From positions 89,938-153,677 of the forward strand of contig KL197746.1 in the NCBI GenBank assembly GCA_000697665.1: DNA of 63,740 nucleotides. Reading direction: 5' to 3'. This document shows, one piece after another, positions 590 through 63,260 of the stretch (the stretch's first letter is position 1; every line of letters begins with the position of its first letter). Both the position numbers and the translations under genes were made by a program. Source of the DNA: Jaapia argillacea MUCL 33604. Taxonomy: Eukaryota > Basidiomycota > Agaricomycetes > Jaapiales > Jaapiaceae. The notes beneath the pieces are model-generated. The model was not told the origin of the DNA. It searched no databases and worked only from the letters and a program-made list of their open reading frames with translations.

Positions 590-1245
590 GTGTAGACCCC
601 GGATGCTCTGATCTATGGATCGACTCCTTGTCAACATCGAGCCTCGCACCAACACAGGATGGAACACAACTATTGTAGGTGAGTGATTTGATAGGTTTCG
701 GTATCGCCACGGTGCCGATGGAGACGCACAGAGTTTCGGCAGTTGTGGAGGCACCTATCCTCATCGAATCTGGGGTGGTGCGCCGTGAGATTGTCTATCT
801 CCGAACCACCAGACATTTCTGTATCTTCGATTGTGGTTAGAACAGCGCTTTCTATCACTTTGCCCACTCCAAAGACGAAACGGTATGATCGAAGGTCCCT
901 CTTTCGGAATGTCTCCTCTCCTTTTCGGGTCCATTGTCCGAACTCCTCATCGACCACTTCAAGCATTCATCTCGAAGGATCCAACCATCATTCCTCTCGT
1001 TCTCTCTGGAGATCCGGTCGATTGGGCCACAAGTAGAGGCACCCTCGCAATTGGTACATCGCTGCCTTCCTAAAATCCACGATTATTAACAGTGTCATCC
1101 GAACATAGGCGCAGTCGCAATTGAGTTTGCTGCTATGACGAAGACACTGTAGATGAAGGTTCTAACCTCCTCCCCACTTCCTGGATCGATGGGCTGCGAC
1201 AGTGGACGAGATCATCGTGAAGGAGAGAGCATATAAAGGCCAATC
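590..1245 (+). pseudogene. Family A copy 1, 5' half (split by TE1)
   Basis: This is the 5' part of the first A-family copy; product unknown. It aligns by eye with 24830-25455 and 40490-41130. A likely first exon starts with ATG at 615 (MDRLLVNIEP) and ends at a GTGAGT donor near 680; the acceptor is CACAG near 730. A later conserved block (about 1130-1245) matches the acidic, Cys-containing exon found in all A copies, but here that frame has an in-frame TAA near 1233. A 4-bp deletion near 950 also sets it apart from the other copies. The copy is cut at 1245 by TE1 and resumes at 7471. Family membership is clear from the shared sequence; exon frames are only partly certain. Confidence 0.6.
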
Positions 1246-1269
1246 CATCAGCAAAACTACAAATCACTT
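1246..1269 (+). repeat. TE1 left terminal inverted repeat
   Basis: The first 24 bases of TE1 pair with 7447-7470 in inverted orientation with three mismatches. The same end sequence recurs at 63261, where TE2 starts. Confidence 0.85.
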
Positions 1270-1289
1270 CCACACCTTGTGAGTCTTGG

Positions 1290-1430
1290 ATGAGTTGTCG
1301 ACTTGCGCAAGTTGCTCACAAGTCACACCAAGTTGGCCATTGAAGACTAAGTCCCGCAAGTGATCTTAAGGCCAAGTCTGCAAGTTCCAGTCTACGAAAG
1401 TTGACTAAGTCATATTCCCGCAACTGAACC
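1290..1430. repeat. TE1 left subterminal ACTTG/CAAGT cluster
   Basis: About ten copies of the pentamer ACTTG or its complement CAAGT, or one-base variants, lie within 140 bases in both orientations. The right end has a matching cluster. In DNA transposons such subterminal arrays usually bind the transposase; that role is inferred here. Confidence 0.55.
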
Positions 1431-2610
1431 AGCCTACACAACGAGCATGTCAAGATTTACGAATAGAATTATAATTGAGAGTTGCATCTGGGATGGTACA
1501 GAAAGGTACAGTACATAGCATAGGAAACATTATGTATAAACTGAGATATGTAAATGGAGCCAGCACGAGCCATTGAGAGATAAGAGTGGTATGTTCGAGT
1601 GTTTAATGTTCGGACCGCCTACTCATTGTCTTTGGTCATGTAAGGTCGACAAGACGATGGGTGCGGGCGTGGACGCACGGGAGATCATCGTCGAAGGTAG
1701 ACTTGAGATGCCAGTGTATCGACACACTGGCTGGCCATGGAACCATAGCGAAATGGTTGCGGCGTCGGAGGGGACAGATCGACTCAGGAGAGAGGACAGA
1801 CAAGACGCAGCCGTGGGCGCACCAGCGAAGGCATCAGATCATCAGGCCCGGAGTGATGTGAGCTTCAGAGATGAAGCGAAGGCAGGAGTCAGAGAAGAAT
1901 GGGGGGTAGGCGACAGCATGCACAACATTGGCCATCTCAATCTTTCCTCCCCTGCCTCCCCTCCCAGGGTGCTTGGATAATCCTGGGCATTCGAGAGGAC
2001 TTGGGCAATATAGCGATGTGAGAATTTGAGGAGTTGGTGGAGGATGCTGAATACTTCTGAAACGGAGGGAAGGGGTAAAGAATTTGCTTGGGTTGCTAGG
2101 GGATAGGACACGGCATTACTATCACACGCGTAGTTCTTATCACCGTACATCAATCTTAGCGATCCACAAATTCGTCTCTTGCGCCTTCAATTCTGCATGG
2201 ATTGAGCTACAATTCGAGATATAAGATCTTTACAATATTCCCGTAGGGCCTATCAACTTGGAATATCGAAAACCTGCTTCGTCTTGACAGGGGAAGCAGT
2301 AACTTTTGCATACCCCCCCTGCCTAAACGGGCTGCTGAGCAGATCCCAGGTCGACAACTTCACCAGCCACTACGAATTACAGGATATCCAACATTCACCT
2401 ACATAGCTATGTCCCTGCACTCATCGATTGGGATGTGCTGGTGTGGAAGCTCTCAGATTGCAGCTGAGGGTGGTGTTGTTCTCCTCATCCGCCACCCAGC
2501 GTGACAGTGTTGAATCTCCGTTCCAAGTGCCGCTGATGGTGGCTGAGGGAGGAGCAAGGTCATTTTCATGGGGGTGCAACGGCTCGTCTCGCCCCCTCCC
2601 CCAATTTTTA

Positions 2611-4899
2611 ATGGTTCGAAAGGCTCAAAAAAATTCCTCGAGGTCAGGCAAGGCGAAGGTCTGCCAACCTGACGAGAAAAAGCTTGCCGCCGCTGTTGCC
2701 TATCTGAAAACTCTCCCTCATGCTTCCGTTAACTTTACGGAAACTGGTCAAAATTTCGGTGTAGATCGCAATACCTTACGAAACCGCTATCTCGGCAACA
2801 CGAAATCCCACAAGGTCGCTCACGAAAACCAGAAAATTCTCTCCTCTGCCCAGGAAGAGACTTTACTCGAATGGATGTGTCATTTTGCGGAAGAGGGACG
2901 TCCGTGGGGGAGGGAAGCCCTTCAGGTGAAGGTGCATCAGCTCACTGGGCATAAGCCCTCAACCCAGTGGGCATCTGGCTTCATGAGGCGCCATCGAGAG
3001 GTGCTGAAGTTCTGCGGAACTTCAGGGTTGGACCCCAAGCGAGCCCAAGCCTTCAACCCGAATGTGATGGCAGATTACTTCAAGAAGTTAAAAGCAGCCA
3101 TGGATGAGCACCAGTACGAACTGGGAAATATCTATAATTTCGACGAGACGGGAATGCAGATTGGGGGAGGAAGGAAGCGCACAGGAAAGAAGTTCTTCAT
3201 TCCACGTAGTTCTCGGGCAAGGTACAGGAAGCGCGATGGGAATCTGGAGTTGGTGACAGTTGTGGAGTGCGCTTGTGCCGATGGTACGATGCTGGAGCCT
3301 GGTTTCATCTTCCAAGGAAAGATGTGGGACCGAGGATGGGTGAAGAACCACCCTGACATTTCGTGAGTCTTCCTAGAACAGTGATTAAGTTTGTGCCCAT
3401 CTGATCCACAGTACAGGGTCGGACTTACTGAGAACGGCTGGACCGATAACTTCCAGGGCACTGAGTGGTTGACGAAGTCGTTCATCCCACAAGCGCGTGC
3501 AAAGGCGGGGAACGCAGAAGATCGCATTCTGCTCATATTTGATGGCCATGGATCTCACCTGACCCAAGAGTTCCGCGATGCAGCGAGGAACAACAAGGTC
3601 GATCTTTTCATGCTTCCCGCTCACACCACCCACAAGAGCCAACCATGTGATGTGGGGTGTTTCGGTCCATTGCAGAAGGTGTGGATAGATCGTGTTGAGA
3701 GAATTGCGGTCGATACAGATGCGGGGATGCCAAAACATGACTTTGTCAACGAGTACATGGAGATACGAAAACTGGCAATCAAACCTGAAACCGTGAAGGC
3801 CGCCTTTCGAAAAACGGGCATCGCGCCCTTCAATGCCAATATCTTCACAGAGGCCGACTTCGCACCAAGTCGAACAACATCTACCAAAGCATCTTTTCCA
3901 CCCTCATTCCCATCTCCATCAATTTCCCTCTCCGAGTCCTCCGAGATGGACATCGACATACCAGGACCATCGGGACTGCTCGAAGATGACATGCCTGTGG
4001 ATTCCAAGTTGCATCCCACCACTAGCACCAGCGAAGCCGGTTGTGCTTTGGGTCCTGATGGACAACTTCTTGAGCCCAACGAAATCGTCTGGTATTACGA
4101 TGCGGATGACAGCGAGCCAATGGCCGGTATCGAGCCAACGATCACATCCTCGTCTATCACAGTTGCACCAGACACCCCCACCAAGTCCGATACATCCGGT
4201 GGCGAGCCATCATCAACGGAGTTACCGTCAATTCCGGCCTCTACAGACCCCCGATTCGAGCTGCCCCATTCAAGAGAAGCACCCACCTCCATTGCCGAAC
4301 CCCTTCCCTCACTGCCGTCTACACCTTCCACTTCATGGGGTCCGAAATTGCCCCAGTTCACGCGCTCGTTCGTTGATAAACGCTTCTCGCTACAAGTTCA
4401 GATTGAGCTTCTTAAAGATGACCTTCGGCGGCTCGAGGACCTTTATCACCAGGAGTTTCGACGACGACAGAGCTTGGAGATGCATTGTGAGATGGCTCAC
4501 GGTGAGATTGAGAAGTTGAAGACAAAGCTGAACTTAAAACGGGACAAGGCAGAGGGTCGGAAGGCCAATCAGTTCCAGACTGAGGCCAAGTTTTTGACAG
4601 GAGCGGAGTGCGATGAATATTTCGAGAAGATAGCCGAGGAAAAGCGGGAGAAGGCTCAAGTTGAAGCTGAGAAGAATGCTGCGAAGAAAGTCCTCGAGAA
4701 GCAGCTCGCCGATGAACGATCGCGTATCGTCAACGATGCGACATTTCGCTTTTCTGGTAATCTCAAGTCACAGAAGAAGCTGTATATTCAAAACCTCGCA
4801 TTCGTGCTCTCCCTATCGACTGAAGGAACCGTGTCAGAGCTCACTGAGGCCGTCATTCAGAAGCTCAATGATAACCCCGATCTCGCTAACAGCCCTTGA
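2611..4899 (+). CDS. DDE superfamily (pogo-type) transposase
   Basis: This is the transposase of TE1, 744 residues in two exons. Exon 1 is 2611-3362 and exon 2 is 3417-4899; the 54-nt phase-2 intron starts GTGAGT and ends TACAG, giving PDIS-VGLTENGW across the join. The N-terminus is basic, followed by a psq-type helix-turn-helix (about residues 20-60) and a CENP-B-type helix-turn-helix (about 75-130). The DDE_1 catalytic core has D178 (YNFDETGM), D293 (LLIFDGHGSH) and D329 (SQPCDVGCFGPL), a DD35D spacing. A Ser/Pro-rich linker (about 410-570) leads to a charged coiled coil (about 585-700). The ATG at 2611 is preferred because it sits just before the basic start of the DNA-binding region; an in-frame ATG at 2536 is possible. 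No break is seen up to the TGA at 4897, so the enzyme may be active, but see the extension that follows. Confidence 0.9.
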
Positions 4900-5325
4900 T
4901 ATGTTGGCATTCGTCACCCCTCACTCAAATCACATCACGACAGTGATGCATCGCATGGCGTCGCTGTCTCTCCGACTCACTCCCATGACCTACCTGAAGA
5001 TACCAACGACCTCTCATCCACACAATTAGTGACGGCTGTCCCTCTTGCGCCACGTCAAGCCACCTCATCAGCTAGACCTCGTTCTCGACCGATACACAAA
5101 GGTGTCGTCTCTTCGACACACTCTTCAAATATACCCGATGAGATTGAAAATATCACTCTTCCCGACCCCGGACCCTCAAGTTCTCTGCAGCCTAGCATCT
5201 TGAGAGTTCGTCAAAGATCTTTACATGACCCTATTCCTCCCACTCAGTTCTACAACCTTCCGAGGCCATATAGTCCTCTGCCTGTGCCCACTATCCATCA
5301 ACCCCCATATCCTTGGGACTCGTAA
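4900..5325 (+). other. 141-codon open extension in frame with the transposase
   Basis: After the transposase TGA (4897-4899) the same frame stays open for 141 codons to a TAA at 5323-5325. The translation is rich in Pro, Ser and His, for example PLAPRQATSSARPRSRP near 5041-5091 and LPRPYSPLPVPT near 5254-5289. It could be an original C-terminal tail cut off by a nonsense mutation, a readthrough product, or a chance open frame. No domain is recognised. Confidence 0.4.
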
Positions 5326-7240
5326 CACTCTCGGGAATGCCCTGTACACCCTAGTTGTTTATAATCCTCACAATCCATGTTCTATTCCATGCACAGTACC
5401 TAAATTTCGTGTATTTTCCATTATACTTTCCATCAATAATCACGCCCTCTCTCCCCTGACTCCAGTCGTTTTGCACACAAGTCCCCATTTTCTCCTGCCG
5501 AAGCGGACTTTGAACGTGCCGCTGTGACAAAGAGTGACCGATCGCTCAGAACTGTATACAGTGTACGCGGAATCCTGCCGAGTTGACTATTTCGCTGCCG
5601 ACACACGCTCTGCCCATAATTCTCTCTCCTTCTCTGATGTATGTGAAAGAGTGAACAATATTGCATAGGATTGCCATAAATTTACAGGCAAAAGTGTCCA
5701 GATGACGGAGGGAGAGGGCAAACACTCAATCACCGATAAGAACTACGTGTGTGATAGTAGGGGGAGAACACAATTGGAATGCGGAGACGACGGACCTTGT
5801 TTGGTATTCTCCCACCGAACTACCAACCGACTCTTGCCTAGCTCTGATCCATACTACAGGGTGCTTGCTTGAAAATGTCGTCGTAGTCACTGGATACCCT
5901 GATACATGTCGGAGGTCCAAAGTTCTTTCGGGAAGCTGAGGGCGGTGCGAGTGGTAGGTCATAGGGGTCGTAACTGTTGTCAACGTGAGTGGTGATGTGG
6001 ACATGATTGATTGAGAAGACAGGTTGCAGGCCAAGTGGAGTCAAAGACATGCCAAAACTAGTGGCGAGGAGTGCGAGCGGTGGGAGCAGCGGTAACCAGA
6101 CGAGCCTCGGGAGATGATACTGTGCGTGATGGTTCGGCTTGAGTTGGGCGACAAGTCTGGCAATCACGTGCATGTTGAACTGTGTCAACCAATCGTTGTC
6201 GGCGACTCATCTTCCAGATGCTCTTTCGTTCCGAACAGCGATGTCTCCATCGCTTTCACTGTTGTACCTCCTCACTTCTCGTCAGCTTGACAACATTCCA
6301 CCTTTCCGTGTCCTCTACCACAAGTTCTAGGCAATCACAGTTCTCATCACAGACTGTTAACTGCACGACGTGTTGCGGCAGCGCTATCCAATCTTTGGCG
6401 CCCTCAAGAGCTCTTGCGTTGCGTCACCTCCCCATCTCCCGCTTGAATCTCCTTAGGCGTATGCCATTGCCCCAAGATTCAATGATCTAGCGCTGCCACA
6501 ATAGCACACTGAGGCTCCTTGCTCGTTGTTGCCCCCGTACCACATCTCGACCTGGCGCTCGGAGAAGGCACTGTCTAGTCCACCACACTCCGTGCTCTGA
6601 CTGTGTGATGGACCCCTAGGATGACTGGTTGTTTCCCACACCATTGATGAGTCTCGCTTGCAGCCCTTCCACACCATTCTCTCGTCCTGCCAGGTCTCCG
6701 CTGTCCACCACCCTCCCTCGCCTGTAATGTTCTGTCTCTCTGTCCATCCATCCCATCTTCTGTCCGGTTTTGTCACCATTCATTCAAGTGCTGGGTGTGC
6801 TTGGCCCTCCAGCTCAGGTAGCCCTTCCGGTTACTCCCGTCTTACCGGATCGATGGCCTGTTCATGGGAAAGCCTCTGTCTCTCATATACTCTGCCCTTC
6901 GTGATTGCCATGGTCTCGTCTGTGCCCCTCACATCCTGTTGTCTGTCTTGATACTCTCAACTATCCAAACCTCCATTAGCATTCAACACCCATGAGGTCC
7001 CAGCAAATGCCACAATTTGGCTCCAGATCCAGTTGTGCACTTCCGGTGTTGGCTTTCCATCCGCGGAAGCTCTTTCAACCACCATCATACTCCCGCTCAC
7101 CTCGGGTTATGGTGTTCCTTGTTACACGGCAACGGGTCAGCTGGAGAGTATGATATTCGATTTGCAGTAGATGTACATTGTGTAGAGTAGCTCGCAGCCT
7201 GGAATATATATCCGCTTGATGCACTTTTTTCGATCCATTT
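5326..7240. other. TE1 3' body without an assignable gene
   Basis: About 1.9 kb inside TE1 between the transposase and the right subterminal cluster. The longest candidate is a minus-strand frame at 5838-6188 (116 aa) with one hydrophobic stretch (LPRLVWLPLLPPLALLATSF), but it has no recognisable domain and no clear splice context. A Gly/Trp-rich minus frame at 6453-6779 is equally unassigned. It may be non-coding, or cargo captured by the transposon. Confidence 0.35.
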
Positions 7241-7259
7241 GTGAATTGGACTGTCTTTA

Positions 7260-7445
7260 AGGTCCTTGTGTGGGACTTGTCCTTGTAACCATGCACTTGC
7301 GCTCGCAACTTGCACTTGGAGATCCGACTTGGTCGACTTGGGCAAGTTCTACCCAACTTGACAAGAAATGGACCTACTGATACAAGACCTCAAAACTTGT
7401 GTCTTGCGGAGCTTTCAAGGCTTGTACAAGACCACCAAGACCTGA
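7260..7445. repeat. TE1 right subterminal ACTTG/CAAGT cluster
   Basis: Dense ACTTG and CAAGT motifs mirror the left end. A segment of about 32 bases at 7356-7387 is almost identical, in reverse complement, to 63343-63376 in TE2, which shows TE2 is the same family in opposite orientation. Confidence 0.6.
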
Positions 7446-7446
7446 A

Positions 7447-7470
7447 AAGAGATATGTAGTTTTCCTGATG
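7447..7470 (-). repeat. TE1 right terminal inverted repeat
   Basis: This is the inverted partner of 1246-1269. It is followed directly by TC (7471-7472), the apparent second copy of the target-site duplication. Confidence 0.85.
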
Positions 7471-9060
7471 TCGAAATTGTGAGTCTCTCTTCTGCATATC
7501 GGCCACTCAATCATAGTTCGTCTCTAGCAACGACGTGTTTTCCAATGCAAGTGAAACTGTCTCTTTGCCCGGCTCTGGTACTAGTGACTCAGGGTAAGCA
7601 AAGCGTGCATATCTTCTCAGTACCATTTCAGTAACCCCAGCTTTCTTCCGACATCTCTCTTTTCCCACTTGTATGCTGTTTCAACAGACAATTCCTGCCC
7701 TACTAGTGCCGATTTTGTCGATCGCCTGCACATATATACTTACCTTAAATCCCAAACTCGCTGTTGCGTCGGGGAAAAGACGAGTACTGCTGTCAACCCA
7801 GTCGATGTGAGATCGTGTATGCGCCGGGGTATTTGAAGTTCGGGACGCCCGCGATTTTGGTGAGTGGCGTTAATTTGGGCGCGCCTGACTATCTGTGGAA
7901 TCATCCCATTCGTCTAGCCTGAGATTTGACAGTGAAACCTTCCTCCGCAATGCCTAGACACGCTTTGACTCCGTCGTTCGGCTACTCCGCGAACCAGTGA
8001 CTCGTCCATCCAGCTTGTAAGTATATGTTCTCCTCCGATCTGCGATCGTCTTTACTTAATTTCTTCAGGACATGAATCAAGCTTAATGGCTTTGATGTGA
8101 CCACCACAGTTCATCTCGATTCGCGCAAGACCCTCGCTGAAGTCGAGGTGGAGGAATACATGGGGAAGGGATATTTTATAGGACATGAGTCTTCACTATC
8201 ATCCAGGTGAGTATCTTCCTTCCCTTTTCCTCTCGATCTCCGTAATCGAACGCACCATCGGATGGAGTTTAAATGTCTCACATTTATAGGTCAAGCCCTT
8301 CGTCGCTCGCAGAGCACGTCACTGGAAAATACGGGGGGTTCTCTAGTACGCGTTGGCGGAACCGTTACCAACGAAGCCCAGCCGACAACATCCAAGATTA
8401 ACTCGATTTTTATCGCTCAAATGTCCCTTCGTTGCCACCAGTGCAGCGTCCACCATTCGAGACATCGTCAAATCCCACTTCTCTCTGGGTATCGAGAGGA
8501 AGGCCGAAGACGATGACCTTTTCGATCACGCAGCTCTCCCCTCACCCCATACCCTCCATACCACCGAGAAAGTTGCAGTCGTTGCGACACTTATTTCCAT
8601 CGAAGCCGGTCATGGAGCTCCCGAAGTCCGAAACTGAGGTATTTCTTCGATTCTTCCCTACGAGGGTCCACGAGAGCGCCAGCGTCTATTCGGAGGGGGA
8701 AAGCGAAACTTGTCACGGGAGAGATGGGGAAGATCAAGTGCTGAAGTAGATGGGAAGAATGCTTTGGAGGGCCTTGGGGTGAAGGAGAGTTCGAAACGAT
8801 TCCAGTCTGGTGTTGAGGCCACGACTACTCTTGGTCCACGATTTACCACACATCTGGCAGGACTCGCCTCTCTAATCTTTTCTAGTTGAGGCCTGACCCT
8901 CACCGGTTTCTCATGAATGTCGTCTTTACTGTTGTATTTGTGTTTCTTCGGGTGGATTTCCGTTTGTATGACCCCCAGTCTTGTCGCATTGTCGTCCGGC
9001 AACCCTTTCAACTACTGAAAGATCTGTCGGTCGTGTTTCAGAGCACAGCGCAAGTGAGAG
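7471..9060 (+). pseudogene. Family A copy 1, 3' half
   Basis: This continues A1 after TE1. The next exon (7528-7590; NDVFSNASETVSLPGSG) is shared by all A copies and ends at a GTAAGC donor; the intron closes with CTTCCGACATC. Later blocks include an exon ending at GTGAGT near 8208 (frame ending YFIGHESSL) and a block at 8290-8640 whose frame RKAEDDDLFDHAALPSPHTL is conserved in A2, A3 and A6. The distal end (8780-9060) matches A3 closely but lacks the coiled-coil exon seen in A5 and A6. Frameshifts and stops separate the blocks. Product unknown. Confidence 0.6.
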
Positions 9061-9890
9061 ATAAATGATATCTGCTGGAACGGGGCCAGTAATGTATTGG
9101 AAGAAAAGGTTACAAGGAGAGCTACGACGTCGTCCAGTCATGGGACATCGACAGCACACTGCCACTCCAAGGTGGATGACAGCTGAGATGATCAGCTTTC
9201 GAGCTTGGATGGAGGTGAGAAGAATCCCATCTCTCGTGGAGGTTGAGGCGAGCATTGTACAGTTTTGAGAGAGACAAATATTGAGCGGAGTTGAGACGAC
9301 TCACCTCAAGGTTGTCGTACAATCCAAGACCATCTCTCCCACTTAATGCAAAACGAAGGTTCGAATAACATAGCTTTTAGTGCATATTTGCCGACTGAAC
9401 GGCTCGTGCTCGCATCTAGGAGACTACGACCAGATCAACGAGACAGATCAGTGACGGGCTTCTCACGGACTGAAGCGACATTTACCAACCACCGAACCAT
9501 GATATGGATCTGGGTGACCTGCTCATCTCCGAACTTGACCTGAGCTGTGCTCACTCGGTTCATCCCCTCCGGCAGGGACACTCTTGGCACTTCTGAACGC
9601 CGTTCATCAACCTCACATGTAAAGGGGGTGAACCCAATGGAACGTGTAGCCAGATCAGTACGTGGTGTGGACTGTAAGCTGGATAGTGAAGGTCAGTAAC
9701 AACGAAACAAGGCAAGGGTGAATCAAATGCTGATGTGGATGAATAAAAACCAAGGGGATAACACCAAAGAGACCGAGAAAAAAACACAAAGATGTCGTGC
9801 CGTTGTCCACTGACAGTCGCAGTCACAACGAGTGTTTCATGGCATGGAACGAGTAACATGGCGGTGAACAGACACACAAAGCATGCTAAG
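9060..9890 (-). pseudogene. Family B copy 1 with H block
   Basis: Minus-strand B-family remnant. It has the hallmark end AAAGGTTACAAGGAGAGCTA (plus strand near 9107), found in every B copy, and an exon ending YDNLE at a GTGAGT donor near 9300-9350. From about 9690 comes the H block, an A-rich stretch also found at 15820, 32080, 44340, 56930 and 58870. No uninterrupted protein can be built. The usual C, F and D genes are missing between this block and the next B copy, so one module has lost its middle. Confidence 0.45.
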
Positions 9891-12000
9891 GGGCATTGCA
9901 GACCGGCGACATCTGAAACAAAAGTCCGCACGGCCTCCTTCCCATCCGTAACCTCGACTTATGCACCTTCCAGAAATGTAGTCACTCATTACGGCTGGGC
10001 GAGACGGTATACGGCATTGTAGACGACGACGATCGGATGTGAGGTTCGGTGTATTCATCGATCCTAAGGTGCACATTGTCGATGCGCAGGAGAGAAACCC
10101 TGAAAAAACATTCGCGTTTTCGTAGGGGGCGGGAGGATGGTCTTATCGCTCTGATCGTCGGTCCAGATAGTGGGAGGAATCGGCTGTCGATGGGCGCGTC
10201 GCTGATACTTACGATGATCCAGGGCACCCTAAACCGGCGGGGTCCTGGAACGCCGAGAACTACCAGGGCTGAAGGGGTTACTGTTAGGATGCGGCCGAAG
10301 TTAGTGAGAGATACAGGGGATAGAATAGAAGAGGACAGACATTGCATTACTACGGAGAGCTACAAACGGAATCCGGATGAGACATCGACCACAAGCCACC
10401 ACCCCGACTTCTTGATACGGATGAACACGGAGAAGATCGGCTCTCAAGGCTGGGAACGGGTGGAATCCCTGTCCATGTGGCGAGGTTTGAGTTGAACATT
10501 GTCCACCTTGAAGTGAGTGTATTCGCGATCGAGAACGGAGGTGTCGTGAGAGTGAGAAGTAATTCACAGAAGACAGATGATCGTGAGACGATTGTTGATG
10601 AGCAGAGTGGAGATGACTTACCCCAAGGTTGAGTTACATATTGAAGACGATCTCTCCGCCCCTTTCAAAATGAGGGTTAGTTCTCGGCGGTTACTCACCG
10701 ACTGAACGGGGTATAACTCGTAACTCGGACCCTACGACGACCAGCGAGACAGATAAGCAGGGTGTTCAACCGGACAGTGAGAGTCAACGGAGACTCACCT
10801 GCAAATGAACCGTGATTCACATCCGATTGACCTTGAACCTTTCATCTACAAACTCGACCTGAGTCCTATTCCCTTCGTCCATCGACTCCATCTCTTGCAT
10901 CTCCTGACACCTGAGTGTTATATGTCGGCCAAAGAGCGGCAGTGGACGCGAGGATGCGAAGAGAGGGTGGACTGGACGAAAGCATCGGAGAGGTTGAATA
11001 AGAAAGGACGAGAGGTAAGCTAGGGCGCCCGACCAAATGCATTGATCGTATGAGATTGGTGGGGTTGAAAGTGTCCACGAGATTGAAAGGATAGATGGTG
11101 CTGATTGGGGAGAATTGGAAGTGTTGGCTGATGAGATCGATAAAAGAGGGTCTGTAGATGAGGACGGCGAGAGAAGGATGCGTGGACTGTGACTGAGGGA
11201 GCGGGGCAACGGGGTAGGGTTCTGGGATATGGACCCTCGAAGAGGAAGGACGATTGACCAGACTCATCGAAAACCCCGCGTCTGGTAAGTAACCGTTTCC
11301 AATCGCCTCCAACCTTGAAGAAAAATCAGCTGTCGCACCCTCAGATGACGTCCCAGTACTCACGTACTCACACGCTCCAGATCGACTCTCAGCGATTCCA
11401 TGGCTGATTTACACCAATTATCCAACCAGAAACTTCATAACCGACCTGATGTACAAGATTGCAGCCCAAACTCCAACGCGATCGAGTATCCAACCGTTAA
11501 CGTTCAACGACCGGAGAGTGTTGTATGACGGAAGGCCTGAGGGTCGAAGGGGAGGGAGGACTGGGTGCAGGACATTGGAGATGTTCGAATCAGATTAGAT
11601 GGTAGGTGAGCTGGGCTGTTCGATTGAAGACATTGCTCGCATGGGATCGGTGGGGATTACGAGTGTTCAAAGCGTTGATTGGATGGATGTGCTGGTTGGG
11701 GAGACTCGATAGAAGCTGCGATCAGATCAAACTCAAAACCTTAAAACCCTAACCATCTCCTTAGCATTTAGGCTCCGCTTGTATTCTGCCCACCTCCAGC
11801 TGCCCAATTGCAAGCGACTCGAAACACCCGTAAGTCCAAGCGCCGTCTGATGTCTCCCAATGACGCGTCAAATCCATTTCAGCGCCCTCATAGCTGTGAT
11901 TGCATCTGATAAGCACATCCCGGACTTTTTGGATGCTCAAAACGCTCACATTCGATGACGTGGTCACCTTAGATTGACGACATGGCTGGGGAGAACGCAC
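9890..12000 (-). pseudogene. Family B copy 2
   Basis: B-family member on the minus strand, alignable with 22730-24570, 38370-40215 and 50820-52830. Conserved splice blocks are visible: a GTGAGT donor after an exon ending near 10812 with its acceptor CGTAG near 10730, an exon with ILKGAERSSSI ending at GTAAGT near 10620, and a 5' block near 11761-12000 starting MRSPQPCRQSKVTTSSN. Here the region matching the VVRISYEIAE exon of other copies carries stops and an 8-bp repeat of the donor GTGAGTAC. It is probably not functional; product unknown. Confidence 0.5.
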
Positions 12001-12129
12001 AGACAGGTGCGTAGAATTTGTCCAATCACATGAAGGTCTTCTTGTGAAAACTGATCACTATATGTGACTAGACACTGGAATCTCTGATCTTTTGATGTAC
12101 TCCGTGTCATCCTTACACCTTTCACCAAC

Positions 12130-18130: not shown

Positions 18131-18139
18131 ATGGAACGT

Positions 18140-19640: not shown

Positions 19641-19865
19641 ATATTGCTGTACATTCTAATCAATCTCCCTTGTCAAATTGAACCAGTATCCCTACACCGA
19701 CATCCGAGCGACATCTACCCTTTGTTTGGAGTTCATTGCCACTGCTATCCACAGGTCTCCTCCCACCACTCGCTGCATCGGAAACATGGCCCGTCCACTG
19801 ATTTTATCCATTCCGGAGCTTCACACTCCTCCAAAGTGAAAGCATTCGTGAATCTATGTTGCCCA

Positions 19866-50457: not shown

Positions 50458-50467
50458 GGACCGGTCC
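50458..50467. promoter_or_regulatory. Palindrome upstream of D3
   Basis: Third copy of GGACCGGTCC, 156 bp upstream of the D3 start codon, followed by GCGTATCGATAC, a degraded form of the second D1 palindrome. Confidence 0.4.
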
Positions 50468-50559
50468 ATGTTAATGATGCGTATCGATACCGGCGATTGG
50501 ATGGCGAGTGGGCGAGTTTTGCGATTTACCCAATTCGACTTCGAATTGATTTCATACTA

Positions 50560-52830
50560 CGAAAGCCCCTCCGAGTCGTCTTCTGATCCGCAAGTTGGTA
50601 TCGTGAATGTACATGAGGTGTCCAGCAAAGTCTGAATCGCAAGGATGAAAATACACCCTCTCGAGGCTCGCACACGTCTCCCTGTGAGGACACTCATGGG
50701 TCTCGTAAACATATCATTTCCCACCCTCCACTAGTTTGCGATCGCAGGTATGCCTCGCGTCCACCAAAAGCGAGTCAAGTCGTCTCCGATCGCTTGACTT
50801 CGAAGTATACTGTAAACGGAGCCTCAGACAGGCGACATCTGAAACAGAATTCCGCGCAGCCTCCTTCCCATCCGTAACCTCGGCTTATGCACCTTCCCGC
50901 AATGTAGTCACTCATGACTGCTGGACGAGACGATGTCCAGCGTCATCGACGAAGACGATCAGATGTGGCGTTCGATGTATCATCGATGTGCAGGAGAGAT
51001 ACCTTGCTAAACGTTTGAGGGTTCTCGTCAGAGGCGGGAGGATGATCTTGTTGCTCTGATTGTTGGTCTAGATGGCGAGCGGAATCGGTTGTCGATGTAT
51101 GCGTCGCTGGCAGTTACCGGGGTTGAGGGCACCCTAAAGCCAACGGGGTCTTGGTACGCCGAGAACTACCAGGGCTGAAGGGGTTACAGCGAGGATGCGG
51201 CCGACGTTAGCGAGAGAGCCGGGGGATCAAATAGAGGAGGACAAACATTTACGTTGATACGGAGAGCTACCAACATGATCCAGATGAGACATCGACCATA
51301 CGCCACCACTTCGTCACGCCAACTTCTCGACATGGATGAATGCTGAGGGGATCAACTTTCAAGGATGGAGATGGGTAGAATCCTAGTCCATGTGGTGAGG
51401 TTTGAGTGGAGCATTGTATACATTGAAACGAGCGTATTCGCGATTGAGAATGGAGGTGTCGCAAGGGTGAGCAGCAATTCGTAGAAGACGGATGATTGTG
51501 AGACGATTATTAACGAGCGGAGTCGAGATGACTTACCCTGAGGTTGGCTTGAACATTGAAGAAGATATTTCCACTTCTTTCAAGCCGAGGGATCGATTGA
51601 CGGTTCTCGGTGGATACTCGCCCACTGAGCAGGTCGTGCGCGTAACTCTGGCACTATAACCAGATCAGCGGGACAGATGAGCAGGGGTGTTCAAGGGACA
51701 GTGACAGCCAATGCAGACTCACCTGCAAACGAACCGTGATATGTATCCCATTGATCTTGGAACCTTTCGTCTACAAACCCGACCTAAGGTCCATTCACTT
51801 CGTCCATCGACTCCATCTCTTGCATCTCCTGACCTCTGAGTGTTACATGTCGGCTAAATAGCGGTAGACAACTGAACGCGAGGGCATGAACAGAGCATGG
51901 ACTGAGCGAAAGTGTTGGAGAGGTCGAATAAGAAAGGACAGGAGGCAAGTTGGGGCGCTCGACCGAAGGGATTGATAGTACGAGATTGGTGGGGTTAAAA
52001 GCGTCCACGATGTTGATTGGATGTTGCTACTTGGGGAGAATCGGAAGTATGAGTTGATGAGCGTGATTGAAGAGGAGAGAGGCGAGAGAAGGATGCGTGG
52101 ACTGAGGCGGAGGGACATGGGAAACGGGACCGGGATAGTTTCCGCGATATAGATTCTCGAAGTGTATAGGATAATCGAACTGAATCATCCCAAGCCACCC
52201 GCGTCTGATAACCAGGACCAATCGCCTCCAACCCTGAAGCACAATCAGCTGTCGCACCATTGAATGCCTCCCAGTACTCACGTGTTCCAGATCTCTCAGC
52301 TATTTCATAGCTGATTCGCACCACATATCCGATTTGAACCTCCACAACCGACCTAATGTCCAACTTCAACGACCAGAGAGGGCCAGAGGATGGGAGGGTG
52401 CGACCGAGAGTGGACTGGGCGGAGGGCATCGGAGAGCTTTCGAGTCAGATGCGACGGGAGGTGCGATGGGGACGTTCGACCAAAGGGATTGCTCGCACGA
52501 GATCGGCGTGGGTTCGTAGCATCCAAAGCGCTGATTGGATAGATGTGCTGGTTGGAGAGACTCGAGGCAAGACATGTTCGGAGAAGCTGCAATCGGATCA
52601 AACTCAAAACCTAAAACCCTAACCATCTCCGTAGCATTTAGGCTCTGCTTATACTCTGCCAAGCTCCAACTGCCCAAGCGACTCAGGATACCCGTATACG
52701 CTGTCTGATGCCTCCTAATGACGCGTCGAATCCATCGCAACACCCTCGTAGTTGTGAGCTCATCTGATAAACAACTCCCGAACTTTTGGATCTTCAAAAC
52801 GCTCGTATTCGATGACGTGGTCACCTTAGA
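50560..52830 (-). pseudogene. Family B copy 8
   Basis: B copy upstream of D3. It is the clearest for the exon pair IGYVVRISYEIAERSGT (52335-52285), a 48-nt intron, and LEAIGPGYQTRVAWDDS (52235-52185); they join in phase through an Arg codon. A 5' frame at 52824-52366 begins MTTSSNTSVLKIQKFGS. The 3' part (50700-51240) carries stops. Product unknown. Confidence 0.5.
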
Positions 52831-52999
52831 TCGACGACATGCTTGAGGAGAACACGTAGACAGGTCCGTAGAATTTCTCCAATGAGATCAAACTCTTCTT
52901 GTGGACGTTGATCACTATGTGACTAGACACTGGAATCTCTGATCTTTCGATCGACTCCATGTCATCCTTGCACCTTTCACCAACACAGGATCAACCACA

Positions 53000-55640
53000 C
53001 TCTAGGTGGGCGGCGATTTGATAGCATTTGATGCCAACATGGTACTGATGGAACTGAGTAGAGCTCCGTTAGTTGCGGAAGTACCATCCTCATCGAATCA
53101 CTTCAATTTGGTGTACTCAGGTTCTAAGGCCTTCAGTATGCTCTGCGTGTTTGTGCTACCCTTCGAAGGGAGCCTAACTATCCGTTTGTTTCAGCTTCTT
53201 CCCAGGGAGTAATCCCTCGAATTCAAGGGTCGGCCAGCTTCGTATCGTGGGTGGTGCACCATGAGATTGTGTATCTCCGAACCGCCGGACATCTCTGGAC
53301 ATTCGACATTCAGTATTGGTTCAAACGTCGGTTTCCATTATCCCGCCCACTCTGAATACCCCAAGCTACACAGGACTCCCCTTCACAATGTATGCTTTTA
53401 GTTTCCGGCCCATCCTCCGAACTCATTCCTTGACCACTTCAAGCATCCATGATGGACCCCAAAGTACTGAACTACATCACTCTCGTGTCTCCGACTCATA
53501 TGACTGACAGGACAACAAATAGAACGCACCTTCCCAATCGGTACTTGGTTGACTTGCCAGAATCCACGATTATTCACGTCATTATCTGAACACAGCTAAA
53601 GTCGCAACTGGGTTCGCTGGTCTGACGAAGTCGCTGTAGATGAAGGTTCCACCCACCTGCTCACTTCTTTCATGGGCTGCGACGACGGACGAGATGAATG
53701 TGAAAAGGAGAACATACAGCAGCCATTCAAAAATGTGAGTCTCCTTTTCTTTATCCCTCCACTTCATCTGAGCCCTTCTGTAGAAACGGCGTGTTTATAA
53801 GTGTAGGTCAACTTATCGCCTTGCTCGGCTCTTGTACTAGCGAGAGTAGGCGAACCGTGCCTATCTCCTCAATCGCCTTTTATTGATTCATACTTTCTTC
53901 TGACAGCCCTCTTTTGCCGCCTCTACACCCATTTGATAGACGCCCATCGTTTTCAACAAGAACCGAACACATATATTCTTCCCGAATCCCTGTGATACAA
54001 ATCTCAACGTCACTTTCATATCTGGGAAGGACGAGGACCTTCTCAACCCATTCGATATCGGTGATTTCATGTAATCGCTGGGCGTTTGGAGTTGGGGAAC
54101 CCAGCAATCGAGGTGAGCATCGTTCGTTCGGGCGCGTGGCTATTCCTAAACCATCCTATCCGTCTCGATTAGACAGCAACTCCTTCCTCCACAGAGCGAA
54201 CACACATCGACTGCAGATTTTGGGCTACTCCAAGAACGCATGAATTGTTCATCCAGCTTGTAGATTTGCGTTCCTCCTCCGATCTACGATCATTTCATAA
54301 CTTACTCGAATCCTTCAGGTGATGAATCAAGCTCGATGGCTTTGATGTCGAACTAGAAGGGAAGGAATTCATGCGGAACAGGGGATATTTGATAGGAGAT
54401 GAGCACTGTCGTCTAGGTGAGTATCCTCTTAGACTCTTCCTCGAGCTCTCCGTGATCGAACGTGCCGTCAGATCGAGTATACATCCCCCACGTCTATAGG
54501 GCACGTTCTTCGCGGCTCACAGATCATGCGACTGGGCAATGGCAGAAATCGTTGCCAACGAAGCCCAGCGGACAACATCTGCCGTCGACTCGATTTTTAT
54601 CGCTCAAATGTACCCTCCCTGCCGTCAGTGTACGACCTACCATCCGAGACCTTACCAAATCCCATCTCTGCGTACGGAGCGAAAGGACGAAGATGAAGAC
54701 CTTATTAATAACTCGGCTCTCCCCTCGCGTCATACCCTCCACGCCACCGAGGAAGCCGTAGTCGTTGCGACAGCTGGGAGCGCTTGAAGTTCGGAACGAG
54801 CATTCACGAGAGCGTTAAGATTTATTTGGAGGAGCAAGCAAAATTTCTCAGCGATAGATGGGGAGGTTTGAGAGTGTTTATGCCGGGGTGAAGAGTACTT
54901 TGGAAGGCCTTGGGGTGAAGGAGGGTTCGAAACGATTCAAGTCGATCGTTGAGGGTGGGGTGGAAGAAGAGGTTCCGCTTGAGGATCGAAGGTGGAGAGA
55001 GGATATACGGGTGGTGGATCGAAAGTATTTCAAGAGAGTTGGAGCTTGGGTCCCAACTCACCCTCCGCAGATCTCACGGAGACTTCTGCAGCGCCTTCGA
55101 CACTGTGATTGTACCTGATCGACAAATCAGTGTTGTGAGATGCGCCTTGGGGATTCTGCGTCACCTCAGGCCGAAGATGTATTTAGGGAGACGATGTGGT
55201 TTGGGAATATGTCGGGGAGAGTGGAGAAGTTGAGGAGGTTGAACAATGCCCTGCGCGAGAGGGGTGAAGAAATGAAGGTCCGTCTTCTCCCATCCACCTC
55301 CAGACAGTTGGAGCTGATTTCTCTTTGCACATTCAATCTGATGATGCCTCCCATCTTCTACTCAATGGTCGCAACTCGTCTATCCAATCTATGTCATTTG
55401 CCACTGAACTGGAGAGGAGCTTGAAGGACACTGTAGGACGAGGCCTGAGAGCAACGAAGCCGGACAAAAGCGAAAGCAGAAGGTGGACATCGCATGGCGA
55501 TTTTTGGGGTATACAATAGTTATATGGAAGTGAGGGTAGCGTGAATACGTGTTGTTTTTCCGGGCATAGTTCAAATCTCCATAACAAACCCGAGTCTTTA
55601 TTGGTTACGAACTTATTCTTCCTTCTCCCTGACTGTTACC
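53000..55640 (+). pseudogene. Family A copy 6
   Basis: A copy closely matching A2. Blocks: GDLIAFDANMVLMELSRAPL (53009-53070), the acidic exon (53612-53740; VDEGSTHLLTSFMGCDDGRD), NGVFISVGQLIALLGS (53786-53833), FMRNRGYLIGDEHCRL ending at GTGAGT (54370-54417), EDLINNSALPSRHTLHATEE (54692-54751), VKEGSKRFKSIVEGGVEEEV (54916-54975), the coiled coil RVEKLRRLNNALRERGEEMK (55219-55278) and HLLLNGRNSSIQSMSF (about 55352-55400). Joining exons needs frameshifts at several points, including a missing AG before the last block. Product unknown. Confidence 0.6.
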
Positions 55641-57639: not shown

Positions 57640-59840
57640 TCAACCATGAGGTCTGATAGGTTCACCAATGAAGTAGTCACCGTGAACGCACAGGAGAGAC
57701 GCCCTACATAAGGCTTGTTCAGCGGCGAGAGGATGGTCTTACTAGTCTGACCTTTGCTCCAGTTTGTGGACGGAATCAACTGTGGATGGCAGTGTCTTGG
57801 GAAGCTCGACAACATGAGGTCCGTGCGAGCATTGCATTGAAACGGAGGGTTACGAGGAGAGCTACGAACATTGTCCAGGTACACAATATCGATGAAAAGA
57901 TGCCAACCTGACTTCTCATATGGATTGAAGCTGAGGCAATCAGCTTTCGAGGACCGAAGTTGAAGTTGGGTATTTAGACTTCCAGTTGTCGTGACCAGAC
58001 TTGAGTCGAGCATTACATACAATGGAGAGTCTTCGCGGTTGAGAGTAAGCGGAGGTGTCTTGAGGGTGGGCAGTAATTCGGAGAACTGGAAGATTGTAAG
58101 ATGATAATGGACGAGCGGAGGCGAGATGACTCACCCAAAGGTTGTCATAAAAGTCCGGCGCAACGATGTAGGATCGGGTAATGTCGCTGACCGACAAGGT
58201 TGTGCTGGTAAGCAGGATGCTACTACCGAATCAACGAAAAAAATCAGTGAGAGTCTTGAGATGGACGGCGTGAATCAAGGGAGACATACCTGATGTCGAA
58301 GCATCCAGATGACCTGAAGTACCAGACTGAACCTCAGCGGTGTTCTCTCGGTCCATCAAGTCCTGTAGGGCACTTGATGTTCTGTACTCTTCGTGTTTCT
58401 GAGAGTTATAGGCCAGAAGACGGGAGTGAGCGAACAGAGTATGAACGAGACGGAGGGCGTTGCGATTGGGGCATTCTGCTGGAGAGGTTGCTTGTATGGG
58501 TTTTAGGGATTAGGAGTGACTAACGTCGTGGTAGGATGGGCGATGAATGGTGCGGGTTGGGCGGGCAGGGGCCAAGATCTGGGTGCAACATATCCGAAGA
58601 GCGAAGTGTCTCCGAGACCGCCGGCGAGGGTGGAACATCCGGAAGGGTTGGGTGATGGACAGGGTGTGTTGGGTGTTGAAGATGTATACGAGAGTTGTAA
58701 AAACAAAATTCATCGTGGCGTGCTTGCTGGTCAACTGAGCCAATCGTTAGTCATAGTGTTGGTCGTACAGGTATTCGAGCATTACCTATACCAGAGCCAT
58801 GACAATCGCCTTCTTAAATAGCAAGGCGATGGATAGGTAGGTGGAGAGGGGCGGTTGGCTGGGTAGCGAAGATAAGTAATGACGAAACAGGAAGCAAGGA
58901 ATCGAGTGATGATACAGATGAATAAGGACATAAGTGGCAAAAACAACTGAGATGATACGAAGAGCGCAAAGACATCGCAAACACTTGAAACAATAATCAC
59001 GGCTATGGCGCCTAATGGCGCGGAATGAATAACTCAATGATGAAAAGATGGCGAAAAGAATCCAGGGAAGCGTCGAAAAGACATTTACCCAACACGCCCC
59101 TCGAATCAGATAAGCAAAAGAAAATCGCACATAATTGAATACACCCCGAAGAACATCCTCCCACCCAAAGACAGCTCTCCTCGAAGAAACCTAAACTCAC
59201 TTTCAAATAGCATTGACGTTAATCGCTATAATCCAACATATAATTCCTCGTCACGGAGCCTTATCCACAAGGTCCGCTAGATTGAACACGATATGTTCAA
59301 GTCATATGTTCGAGAGTCGTTGTTAGGGTCGTTTACTATGACGGTCTATAATGGGAAAGGGGTTAGTCTTGTCATAATGAGATGAAGCACGGTGAGGAAG
59401 CAAGGAGTGTGGAGGAAGGAAGGAAGATCGGACATGTGATGGAGAGAAGAAAGCCCGGAGGCTGGTGAACGAGCAGGGGTGGGGGTAGGGTGAACGTGGA
59501 TTAAGATGTATGAACAAGGAATGGACGTTCCTTCCAAACAGATCGCGGGCAATAGCCCGCATATACTAACTCTAGCTCAGTGCAAATGGCGAACAAGACC
59601 GAAGGGACATATTCAACCCAAATCCGCAGACTCATATAGCAAGCCATATCACCAGCCAAAATCCAAACATGCAAATGGGCATTCAAATCCGAAACCAAGC
59701 ACGGTCGGACAAAACAAACCGTAGTCCGATGAAGGTGCGACGAAATGAGGAAAATCCGTCTAAGCAAACCCCAAGTTCACACCTCCGACGAAACGAGACG
59801 GATCTAGGATTATATCCACCAAACCAAAGGGTCTATATAT
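57640..59840 (-). pseudogene. Family B copy 10 with H block
   Basis: Closely matches B7 and its H block (43144-45270) in the same order: exon SDITRSYIVAPDFYDNLW ending at GTGAGT (58140), the region 58290-58740, H block 58870-59170, A-rich tail 59560-59840. Indels and stops break every long frame, and the frame after the first exon is shorter than in B7. Confidence 0.45.
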
Positions 59841-59863: not shown

Positions 59864-60250
59864 TCACTTCGCGCTGAACCTAACTTCATACGCCTCCAAC
59901 TCGCCCTCCTTCCTCACACCCATCTCAACAACCACATTCAACGAAACTCCCATTTCGAACTGGGACTCGAGCGAAGCGAAAGAAAGTGAGCCTCGAGCGG
60001 ATGAATACGATATTTCTGATGTTGTCTGGTGACAATGGTGGACCTTGGGTGGAGGGACGAGACAAGGACGAGGGTGGGTGGTGTGAGGAGGCAAAGGAGG
60101 ACGACCAGGCCTTGATGAGGCTAGGATGGGATAACCATTGGGTGTTGGCTCAAGTCCGGTTTGTCGATGCGACTCTGCAGGATGGATGTAGGGCAGATCC
60201 ACTACGGGTGTGCCCATATCCCCAAGGTGTTGGGGGGATTGATTCAGACA
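59864..60250 (-). pseudogene. Family C copy 5 (NT-C2 protein remnant)
   Basis: The minus strand keeps the second half of the NT-C2 domain well: SYSSARGSLSFASLESQFEM, then NVVVEMGVRKEGELEAYEVR before a donor near 59868 (GTGAGT with flank AAG). The upstream linker is partly out of frame, and the 5' half of the exon, present in C3, is missing. Confidence 0.6.
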
Positions 60251-61690
60251 TTGCAGTGGGTGGATCGGGTGCGGTGGCAGAATCAAGGGGGATACGTGTC
60301 ATGGTCTGAGCATCCAGGAGGCCAAGGTGGACACACTCCTTGCCTCGATAGTCTATCCACGGAATATCCCCAAACAGTTTACACAGCGATTGGTCGATTG
60401 GGGTGATGTCATCGTCCACGTGTCTGGCCAGGCGTCGTCGTGGGTCTGCAGGGCATGCAACGTTCGGCGCTGGTACTGGAGGTTTCTCAAACCCATTGGT
60501 TCAGATTCTGATGCAGGTGGGTAAGGGACGCAGGGAGATCGCGACTATCCCTAACAGCTTAACCATCCTGATGTCTGCTCTTATATCTTAGTACTCCCTT
60601 GTATCGGTGTCACAACTCACTAGGTCTCACTTGCCAGCGTCATATTGGCTCTCACTCGATGCGCTGTCCGTCACTCGTAAAGTTCCTTCCTCGTCTTTGA
60701 GCGGCATACTTCGCCACTTCCTGCCCTATTGAAATACCCCACTCTAGCTCTCTCGTGACCATGGGTTGCACGTCGTTTGAAGGACAACACGAATACCGGC
60801 CACCATGACCTCAATTCCTTGGTTTCATAAACCCACTCTGAGGCAAGTATTCCCCCCTCCCTTCTGAATCGCCGTTTCGAACCAAATCACCCTATGTAAT
60901 CGCTCCCCCAACGACTCTCACTCTGTCGTGCTCGAATTACAGACCAGCTTCCCCAGTCAGATATGGATCTCTCTACTGGACCTTGACCAAAACTGCTCTC
61001 AAATACACATAGCAACCCCAAGGTATCAAAGACGAAAGCCAAGCTGGTTCGATATCCTGACATGGAGGAATACGGTGAACGAGGTGTTTCGATCGTTTCA
61101 ACCCGGCGATTTCTCAATCCATGGTCTTCACATCCTTGCCCTCGAATGACGCCACGCCGAAATTTACACCACTCGTCGATGAACATTCCCGGGTCCACTC
61201 GCATGGGTACCACTGTCCGTTACCAGGTTCCCTCCGTTTTACTGATCTCGAAATCCGACTGGCACTTCTATCATATTCACTTCAGTCTCAACCTATTCTA
61301 AATGCCCCACATCCCTTCCCTCCCACAAGACGATGTATCAGATCTCGATGCTAATCCCATTGTCTTTGTGGATTTCAGAAGCTTGTCGATCGGTTGGCGC
61401 GCTCGCAACAGGTCCTCAACATATTGTCATCATCACCCCTGTACTTCTCGATACCCTTTCGACGTTCTCATCTCCCGGAATGACTGTCGGATCCACAGGA
61501 GTCAACCTCGAGTCGAATAGAGAATGGCTGGACATCTCTTTTCCTGGCTGATGAAGTCAGGTTACAATGCTTTGCGCACTCTTGAGCTGAAGTCCCGTGG
61601 CTCAGACTAGAGGTAGTGAGGGAGGTTGATATGTTGCTCGGTTCTTATCCATGGCTGGGGCTCGAGCTTCAAAGTCCTAAACTCAAGTAA
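60250..61690 (+). pseudogene. Family F copy 4
   Basis: Plus-strand F copy. Blocks: VSWSEHPGGQGGHTPCLDSL (60296-60355), RRKPSWFDILTWRNTVNEVF (61032-61091), SNDATPKFTPLVDE (61142-61183), SHGYHCPLPGSLRFTDLE (61199-61252), DDVSDLDANPIVFVDFRS (61329-61382), IVIITPVLLDTLSTFSSPGM (61425-61484). About 400 bases are missing near 60440-60530 relative to F2. Product unknown. Confidence 0.5.
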
Positions 61691-61968
61691 TTATGGCTCT
61701 ACATTTAATTAATCTCCCCTGTCCGAATTGAACCAGTAACCCCTACACCAACATCTGAGTGATATCTACCCTTTATTCGAAATTTGATGCCACTGCTATC
61801 TGCAGGTCTCCTCCCACCACTTTCTGCAACTGTATCGGGAGCATGGCCAGCCTGCCAATTTTATCCATTCCGGAGCTTCACACTCCTCCAAAGTGAAAGC
61901 ATTCGTGAATCTATGTTGCCCACTAATGAAGCCAACCAGTCTGTATCAGTTCCAAAGCAAGACCTTCA

Positions 61969-63260
61969 TCAAAAAAGAGCCCACCAATTATACCAATATA
62001 CATCTGCCAGCTGACCATTGAAGCTACAACCAGTCAAGATATGCAACTCTTCCTTCCGAAGAGATGCCCATTCCTCTGGAACAATGAGGTCGCTCCCTAT
62101 TGCAAATATGCCAATGTCTCCGCGAGAATGGATTGGAATGCTAGCAATGAATGTGTCTCTACCACAGCCATCCCCAGTCAATCTCATGGGATTGTGATGG
62201 TCTTTCTGCCTGATAAAGTCGGAGATGAGAGTCCAATGTAGAGAACTCCTATGACCTAGGAGTAACTCTGGTGCTGGTCATGACCTCAAGTCCAACACTC
62301 CCATCCAATGCCCATTGTAGGGGGAGTGATTGATCATAACCTAGGTTCATTTGCATCAATACAGTTTAAAAGGGGTGGGTAAGTAATGAGCTACCTTTAC
62401 ACTTGTGGAATGATTTTGGGGGATGGTGCTGGATGCCTGATATATGCCAGCACACCACTGTTGATTGAGATCTTTGGTTTGGAAGAGGGACCACAAGTGG
62501 GGAGCAGACTTCAAAAGTATCTCACGAAGAGGGGTGACATGATCTGCCCCTAGATCTGAGGTGGTTGTGGACTTTGCAAGAAGACAGATGAGTGTCTCAT
62601 GACATTCAACATCATGGCTTGCAATTCGAGAAACATCTGCTGAAGTACATTCACCGCTGATCAAGATGCTGAGCATACTGCAAGATAATGTGTTCAACAG
62701 AGGGAAAATGGACTCACCGGAGGACGAGGGCTAAGAGACGGCGACATAGTTGTGTTCGTGATGGAGATGAAATAGATCGGAGATGGATGTCATCTAAGTT
62801 GCAGGAGGGAACACTGGGAAAATTCCAATGATGACAAAAAGCACTCCAGATTTCTTGTGATGGTGAGGCAATTTCTCGCCACTTGGAAAATGTCTCAGTG
62901 CCAATGGACGAATAGTCGAAGTGGGCTGACTGAGAACATAGCTGCCTTAGATGAGTTAGGCTGGACTTGCTTGTAGGACGGTTTGGTTTATATCCATAAC
63001 CTAGGTGGTTGATAAGTCGACTAACAAATTCAGCTGGTTCCGGTATGTCTGTTAGGGATGAGGACACCAGACATGCGAGATAAAACTCACGATTTCCGCC
63101 CTGAGTTTTCCGTTGAAGGATATAGACAAAGAGGGACAGCACGGCATCATTGGTGAAAGAAAAAAAAGAATACTGCAGCAACTGATCCATTAAGCTACAG
63201 AACGCGGCAGAGCACAAGGAATCCGCTGATTGAGCAAGATCTACCCAGCTGGCTAGGATT
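61969..63260 (-). pseudogene. Family D copy 4: truncated by TE2
   Basis: Only the 3' part of exon 3 (63260-62718), exon 4 (62677-62395) and exon 5 (62340-61969) remain. Exons 1 and 2 and the start of exon 3 would lie beyond the TE2 insertion point, outside the window. Exon 4 uses the same GTAGCT donor as D2. Exon 5 has an in-frame TGA at 62280-62278 and a frameshift near the end (YWYNWWALF, then stop). It is clearly non-functional. Confidence 0.75.

Follow-up and report, generated by a model that had tools for sequence, protein, structure and literature searches.

The DNA studied here, in the following termed the window, comprises 63,740 bases (89938-153677) of contig KL197746.1 (C38; 309,709 bases) from the basidiomycete Jaapia argillacea MUCL 33604, the genome of which amounts to 43,724,918 bases on 95 contigs. 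The window is the middle part of a tandem array in which a single gene, termed D, is repeated with its reading frames kept, next to decayed fragments of other genes. With a probability of roughly 70%, a locus arranged as NT-C2 - D - H, together with a chimeric block termed A, was amplified, whereupon the modules recombined, the passenger genes decayed and D was retained under selection. An initial annotation of the window had proposed five unrelated gene families (A, B/H, C, F and D) recurring as a module. Among these, D alone repeats with frames kept, while A, B/H and C are fragments. Positions given without a contig name are those of the window.

The tandem array and gene D

Comparison over 263,600 bases of C38 located the array at approximately C38:80.4-191.3 kb, i.e., it extends over about 110 kb. 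Self-comparison of the window yielded long collinear off-diagonals in direct orientation at a spacing of 12-16 kb, just as had been predicted initially, and the array proved to be larger than claimed at that stage. For example, positions 18174-26787 match positions 33829-42442 at 80.8% over 8.8 kb, and positions 35969-40264 match 48433-52677 at 82.5%. Distances from one D copy to the next within the window are 15.6, 12.5 and 14.0 kb. Collinear direct repeats of several kilobases, beyond what is expected by chance and with a divergence of 15-30%, characterize the region as a tandem segmental duplication.

An assembly artefact, i.e., haplotypes or misjoined contigs set in tandem, is a very improbable source of this pattern. 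The modules differ from each other by roughly 10-30% at the DNA level and carry different insertions, and a divergence of this size argues, as far as sequence comparison can tell, for real copies rather than assembly-made ones. An artefact would be in line with the runs of 5,801 and 5,950 N located exactly at the two ends of the window and with a doubled flank around a gap of 243 N at 48190-48432, where stretches 47843-48189 and 48433-48778 repeat 348 bp at 99.1%. This gap, situated in copy D4, is probably a scaffold join with doubled ends inside a single gene, and the doubled flank constitutes the sole near-identical pair among the 59 listed window matches of at least 150 bp. Because the long N runs sit at both window edges, the copy number of the array is a lower bound.

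Splice models describe D as a minus-strand gene of seven exons and approximately 700 amino acids with GT/AG introns at matching positions. In D2 (19745-22196; 700 amino acids, open) the exons occupy positions 22196-21769, 21703-21377, 21312-21038, 20995-20665, 20624-20354, 20291-19942 and 19865-19745. D3 (35372-37830; seven exons, 706 amino acids) is likewise open, and D4 (47250-50302) is open in two pieces flanking the assembly gap, except that one of the two versions of the exon doubled next to the gap is out of frame. The gene is intact at three of the four window loci, and the fourth, D5, carries a transposon. The 3' part of D5 lies at 61802-63261 and is followed by the left end of the insertion (63262-63740), which reaches to approximately C38:159953 with 5950 of its bases being N; the 5' part resumes at C38:159954. 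Outside of the window, D or fragments of it occur at C38:83.4-84.1, 160-161, 179.5-182 and 187-189.4 kb, inverted copies are present at C38:19.4-22, 70-72.8 and 74.2-76.8 kb, and contigs C1, C14 and C31 contain one copy each at the DNA level. About 1.1 kb of the D 3' flank also accompanies the gene on C14, and within the 10 kb compared, the copies on C1 and C31 have nothing but D in common with the array.

Complete open models were obtained for eight of 13 loci (seven in the array, three inverted on C38 and those on C1, C14 and C31), and exon 3 measures 275 nt in all ten models that hold it whole. An earlier model with six exons was replaced, as older copies show an additional intron of approximately 42-59 nt that is readable through in D2. 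When all stop-to-stop frames were compared with one another, the top scorers were pieces of D on the minus strand. In a six-frame test with 300-base windows, those of the three lowest-omega frames listed per window (omega, ratio of nonsynonymous to synonymous change) that combined more than 600 codon comparisons with at most 0.1% stops were all D exons. D is thus one repeated gene that keeps its reading frames.

The plus-strand gene F of the initial annotation did not survive this analysis. It consists mostly of the last two exons of D read in antisense (20291-19942 and 19865-19745 in D2) and of the D 3' flank, which lies at 18174-19744 for D2 (the upstream part of block F) and at 33829-35371, 45745-47249 and 60591-61800 for D3, D4 and D5, respectively. 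In three copies other than copy 2, the minus frame of the last exons is ahead of the plus frame (2079 vs. 924, 1965 vs. 808 and 1721 vs. 1226). A match to PH_20 on the plus strand (E 0.003, 18 bits vs. a cut-off of 27) is antisense to the last exons of D and was discarded. The starts assigned to F and A nevertheless fall within approximately 100 bp of conserved block starts, and three of the anchors assigned to D (20665, 36299 and 48764) are exact exon ends in the gene models, while the fourth, 62718, falls into a broken copy that lacks a complete model.

Selection on D and recombination among modules

Codon counts exclude alignment columns that are close to splice junctions or poorly aligned. 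Pairwise ratios of nonsynonymous to synonymous divergence (dN/dS) of D ranged from 0.29 to 0.76 when left uncorrected for transition bias. With a codon model that fits this bias, the six pairs among D2-D5 gave omega values of 0.80-0.91 that are not distinguishable from 1 (twice the log-likelihood difference, 2dlnL, at most 2.6), and the remaining 39 pairs gave values of 0.36-0.85. The signal for selection comes from the site model together with the open frames.

Applied to six copies (D2, D3, D4, D5, D6 and the C14 copy; 648 codons), the site model divided the sites into classes with omega values of 0.20 (46%), 1 (43%) and 5.75 (11%), with a 2dlnL of 137 over the nearly neutral model, the 1% threshold for two degrees of freedom being 9.2. 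Values of 36.4 and 72.5 were reached with the subsets D2-D4 and D2-D5, respectively. When exons were analyzed one by one with their own trees, 2dlnL amounted to 17.9, 20.4, 46.1, 12.9, 3.7 and 25.2 and thus exceeded 9 in five of six exons. As controls, seven null simulations did not exceed 2.8, and ten noncoding pseudo-frames taken from a decayed H block and the D 3' flank gave 1.2-22.8. These results support diversifying as well as purifying selection on D. The initially proposed sequence of events, segmental amplification followed by selection on one gene, is sustained in both parts, with the amendment that selection is not purifying alone.

Neutral birth and death, under which the D copies would merely be those genes that have not decayed yet and their fast change would reflect relaxed constraint, is an unlikely alternative. 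Such a process agrees with the pairwise omega values among D2-D5, which are not distinguishable from 1, and with the broken state of D5, D6 and D7, but it does not readily explain a class of 46% of sites at omega 0.20 beside 11% at 5.75. In the noncoding frames, a constrained class comprised 5-29% of sites in eight of ten cases, and the other two frames fit a broad class near 0.7. Furthermore, neighbouring blocks of the same modules are stop-rich, whereas the frames of D are not.

Recombination among the modules is evident from trees of five blocks, which disagree on the partners of module m4: these are m5 for the 3' flank, m0 and m2 for the 3' exons of D, m2 and m3 for the H block, and m1 for A. 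The tree of the D 5' exons is poorly supported. Identity between D0 and D4 along the 3' flank amounts to 88-97% in the three leading 100-column windows that allow a comparison and to 60-80% across the remainder, and it reaches 89-100% in the last exons of D. The longest run of agreeing variable columns is 93 for D0 and D4 and 29 for D2 and D4, compared with a maximum of 21 in 1000 shuffles, and the run of 40 found for D0 and D2 was reached in one of 1000 shuffles. D2-D3 and D4-D6 did not exhibit any unusual agreeing run in this shuffle test, which covered pairs other than those with D5. The idea of a module recurring in the same order thus holds with respect to the collinear direct repeats and fails in so far as the modules have been shuffled by recombination, as the disagreeing block trees indicate, and module 1 (593-11782) is devoid of D.

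The conflict between block trees and the conversion-like tract over the last exons of D in D0, D2 and D4 also speak for a further explanation, namely that gene conversion and recombination rather than selection create the site-model signal. We regard this as quite unlikely, since exons 1-3, in which D2, D3 and D4 are about equally distant from each other (87.5-88.8%), still yield 17.9, 20.4 and 46.1 with their own trees.

Several observations nevertheless weigh against D having been retained under diversifying selection. Three of the seven array copies do not have a complete open model: an open splice is lacking at intron 5 of D5, which is also broken by the insertion, and at intron 6 of D6, and D7 stops at 583 amino acids; in addition, D0 is cut by N. 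The openness of D is partly by construction, because splice sites were chosen such that junctions stay open, and splice sites are poor in some introns, e.g., in copy Da. For the last exons of copy 2, the plus frame scored slightly higher than the minus frame (2074 vs. 1980). With five older or more distant D copies, the site model gave a 2dlnL of 0.0, and one of the six exons lacks a signal (3.7). Real noncoding DNA inflates the result of the site test, with control frames reaching 22.8, a value that is still far below 137. The main caveat is that recombination, which is present here, can inflate the test further; trees calculated per exon lessen this effect but do not remove it.

Passenger blocks, transposons and the presumed ancestral locus

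All copies of block A are located on the plus strand and match first aspartic-protease exons and then a portion of BRO1. In module 1, the decayed chimera A1 (593-1245 and 7471-9277; span 593-9277) is split by a DNA transposon, and further decayed copies lie at 12064-14590 (A2), 24808-27244 (A3), 28361-29958 (A4, the most divergent one), 40489-42915 (A5) and 52924-55416 (A6). The source genes of the two parts are neighbours on contig C13 (L032), where the BRO1 gene matches PF03097 in two pieces (E 1.6e-77 and 1.3e-35; 261.4 and 123.4 bits vs. a cut-off of 35.1) and the protease exon pieces match PF00026 (E 1.3e-16; 61.3 bits vs. 19.9). In seven A copies BRO1 starts at the same base (L032:4151-4152) adjoining the end of the protease, with approximately 1.5 kb of the C13 sequence skipped, and because of this shared junction the A copies seem to have descended from a single chimera. 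Further aspartic-protease relatives, two copies each, are found within approximately 12 kb of the ends of contigs C8 (L033, C8:1499000-1508000) and C12 (L034, C12:1179500-1189400) and are possibly subtelomeric.

An open NT-C2 frame is situated at the left edge of the array (C38:80548-81654). It scores 24.6 bits (E 2.2e-5) with PF10358 (EEIG1/EHBP1 NT-C2), just below the cut-off of 25.2, and is matched by the minus-strand fragments at 17705-18262, 27406-27795, 45337-45516 and 59867-60298. The best NT-C2 copy of the window, at 32617-33696 (minus strand), shares approximately 92% protein identity with this gene; it has kept the third-position bias and carries one in-frame stop near 33433. At the right edge of the array, an open H frame (C38:190766-191482) is matched by the H blocks, all of which run on the minus strand. 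They comprise the decayed H block of module 1 (9892-11782), fragments at 16499-17029 (six stops) and 31349-31615 (with stops) and decayed genes at 22250-24600, 37884-40244 and 50356-52649. A second, more distant H-like block, common to three modules, occurs at 43263-45160 and, as a copy, at 57848-59776. All 13 other H matches listed lie on C38 and contain stops. Kinship of H with C38:77398-78339 had been suspected by eye and was not used, as blastp was weak (E 5e-5) and neither genome search linked the two. Judged from these matches, the blocks initially taken for families A, B/H and C are fragments of genes that have open or complete relatives elsewhere in the genome. The statement that most members decay while D stays intact applies to most parts and to the retention of D, and requires the correction that D5, within the window, is broken.

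The insert in A1 (1246-7470, plus strand) is bordered by terminal inverted repeats and contains an open reading frame for a DDE_1 transposase (3391-4899, E 1.3e-18) and another (2428-3366) matching the Tc5-type DNA-binding domain HTH_Tnp_Tc5 just below the cut-off. The inserts in A1 and D5 share one terminal inverted repeat; most of the D5 insert reads N. In the part of the array to the right of the window, a Tnp2-type transposase (Transposase_21, E 3.5e-14) is present at C38:172371-173492 (L019:8771-9892).

The following course of events would account for these data. The ancestral locus probably had the order NT-C2 - D - H, all on the minus strand, and would also have received a chimeric duplicate (A) of neighbouring aspartic-protease and BRO1 genes. 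Tandem amplification, most likely by unequal crossing-over, would then have generated mosaic modules that extend over approximately 110 kb of C38 and include seven or more D loci. Such a process acting on an NT-C2 - D - H locus would be expected to leave what is seen here: an open frame of NT-C2 at the left edge, one of H at the right edge, and truncated copies of the two genes in between. The modules would subsequently have been shuffled by recombination and gene conversion, DNA transposons of one terminal-repeat family would have entered at least one A and one D, and the NT-C2, H, protease and BRO1 fragments would have decayed inside the array. D, on the other hand, would have preserved its seven-exon frame in the majority of copies, with positive selection acting on a smaller part of its codons. 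The copies may have been retained since a diversity of D is of benefit, with recognition or conflict as the most plausible setting. A single-copy ancestral locus, the existence of which had been suggested initially, was recovered in part within this genome (NT-C2 and H at the left and right edges of the array, respectively, and the protease with BRO1 on C13), and a full A-B-C-F-D arrangement was not encountered there.

Known systems and the possible role of D

Primate core duplicons such as LCR16a with NPIP are mosaic duplication blocks around one positively selected gene (PMC7419210). The C38 array resembles them in its mosaic blocks around a frame-keeping gene, in positive selection, in varying internal repeats and in partial neighbour genes that are carried along. 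It differs in being mostly tandem on one contig, the DNA-level search having detected just three copies outside C38, and in being fungal, with D as an unrelated gene as far as the absence of a family match can tell. With respect to a core shared by the blocks, D is common to seven array loci, and module 1 contains blocks without it. Positive selection on the core gene is found here as well, with recombination as a possible contributor. In terms of architecture, core duplicons are the closest parallel, a likeness that does not extend to ancestry. Tandem multigene arrays evolving by birth and death likewise combine tandem copies, pseudogenes next to intact genes and gene conversion; the C38 array is set apart from these by its unit, a multi-gene module in which passengers decayed and one gene stayed. 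A limited literature search, including core duplicons, did not yield any description of the C38 array or of the D family. The kind of system is already known, whereas the array and the gene family are apparently undescribed in the literature searched.

A genome search with exon 1 of D gave 84 matches, 82 of them free of stops, which form at least 64 loci distributed over 28 contigs; at 20 loci, two or more motif matches are present. The exon-1 motif occurs twice in D6, D7 and Db (C38:181602-182252, 188962-189615 and 70112-70759), i.e., the repeat number varies within the family, and two distant family members that appear alike in architecture by eye have the motif twice each. The spliced D2 protein did not match any Pfam family at E values up to 1 and hence does not contain a recognized NACHT or HET domain. 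The predicted structure of exons 3-4 is all-helical and weak (predicted local distance difference test score, pLDDT, of 56). For the predicted structure of exon 6, which is weak as well (pLDDT 66), Foldseek returned MFP2B (2bjr) as the top match (E 0.18, probability 0.87) and no match at E 0.001 or better. Searches of PDB sequences with alignments of the C-terminal exon gave nothing convincing.

One distant family member scores with DM9 at E 0.026, below the cut-off, and pairs of DM9 repeats are reported to resemble half of MFP2 (PMC3110756). D itself cannot be classified as a DM9 repeat protein: D misses the cut-off of PF11901, and a whole-genome search with the DM9 model did not retrieve any D locus. 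Since D itself does not reach the model, the likeness serves as a lead only. The same search detected two loci above the Pfam cut-off that are unrelated to the array (C12:641274-641579 and C11:768602-768838, the latter with one stop).

Our best guess, based on fast change, the variety of copies and the possible lectin-like domain, is that D may act in recognition or conflict. In a more far-reaching version, which we consider rather unlikely in its entirety, D would represent the local and rapidly changing arm of a fungal recognition family that has not been described so far and has at least 60 loci. Its members would combine N-terminal motifs in varying number with a helical central part and a lectin-like (DM9/MFP2-like) C-terminal domain, and this fungus would generate new variants in an array that, in the manner of a core duplicon, takes neighbouring genes along and degrades them.

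The array provides a compact fungal example of mosaic segmental duplication organized around one positively selected gene, an arrangement that is well described in primates, and it illustrates that what looks like five gene families can turn out to be a single gene accompanied by truncated passengers. At the same time, it leads to a large gene family without a Pfam match, the function of which is now open to testing. The combination of a mostly kept reading frame with unusually fast protein change is a pattern often seen in evolutionary arms races.

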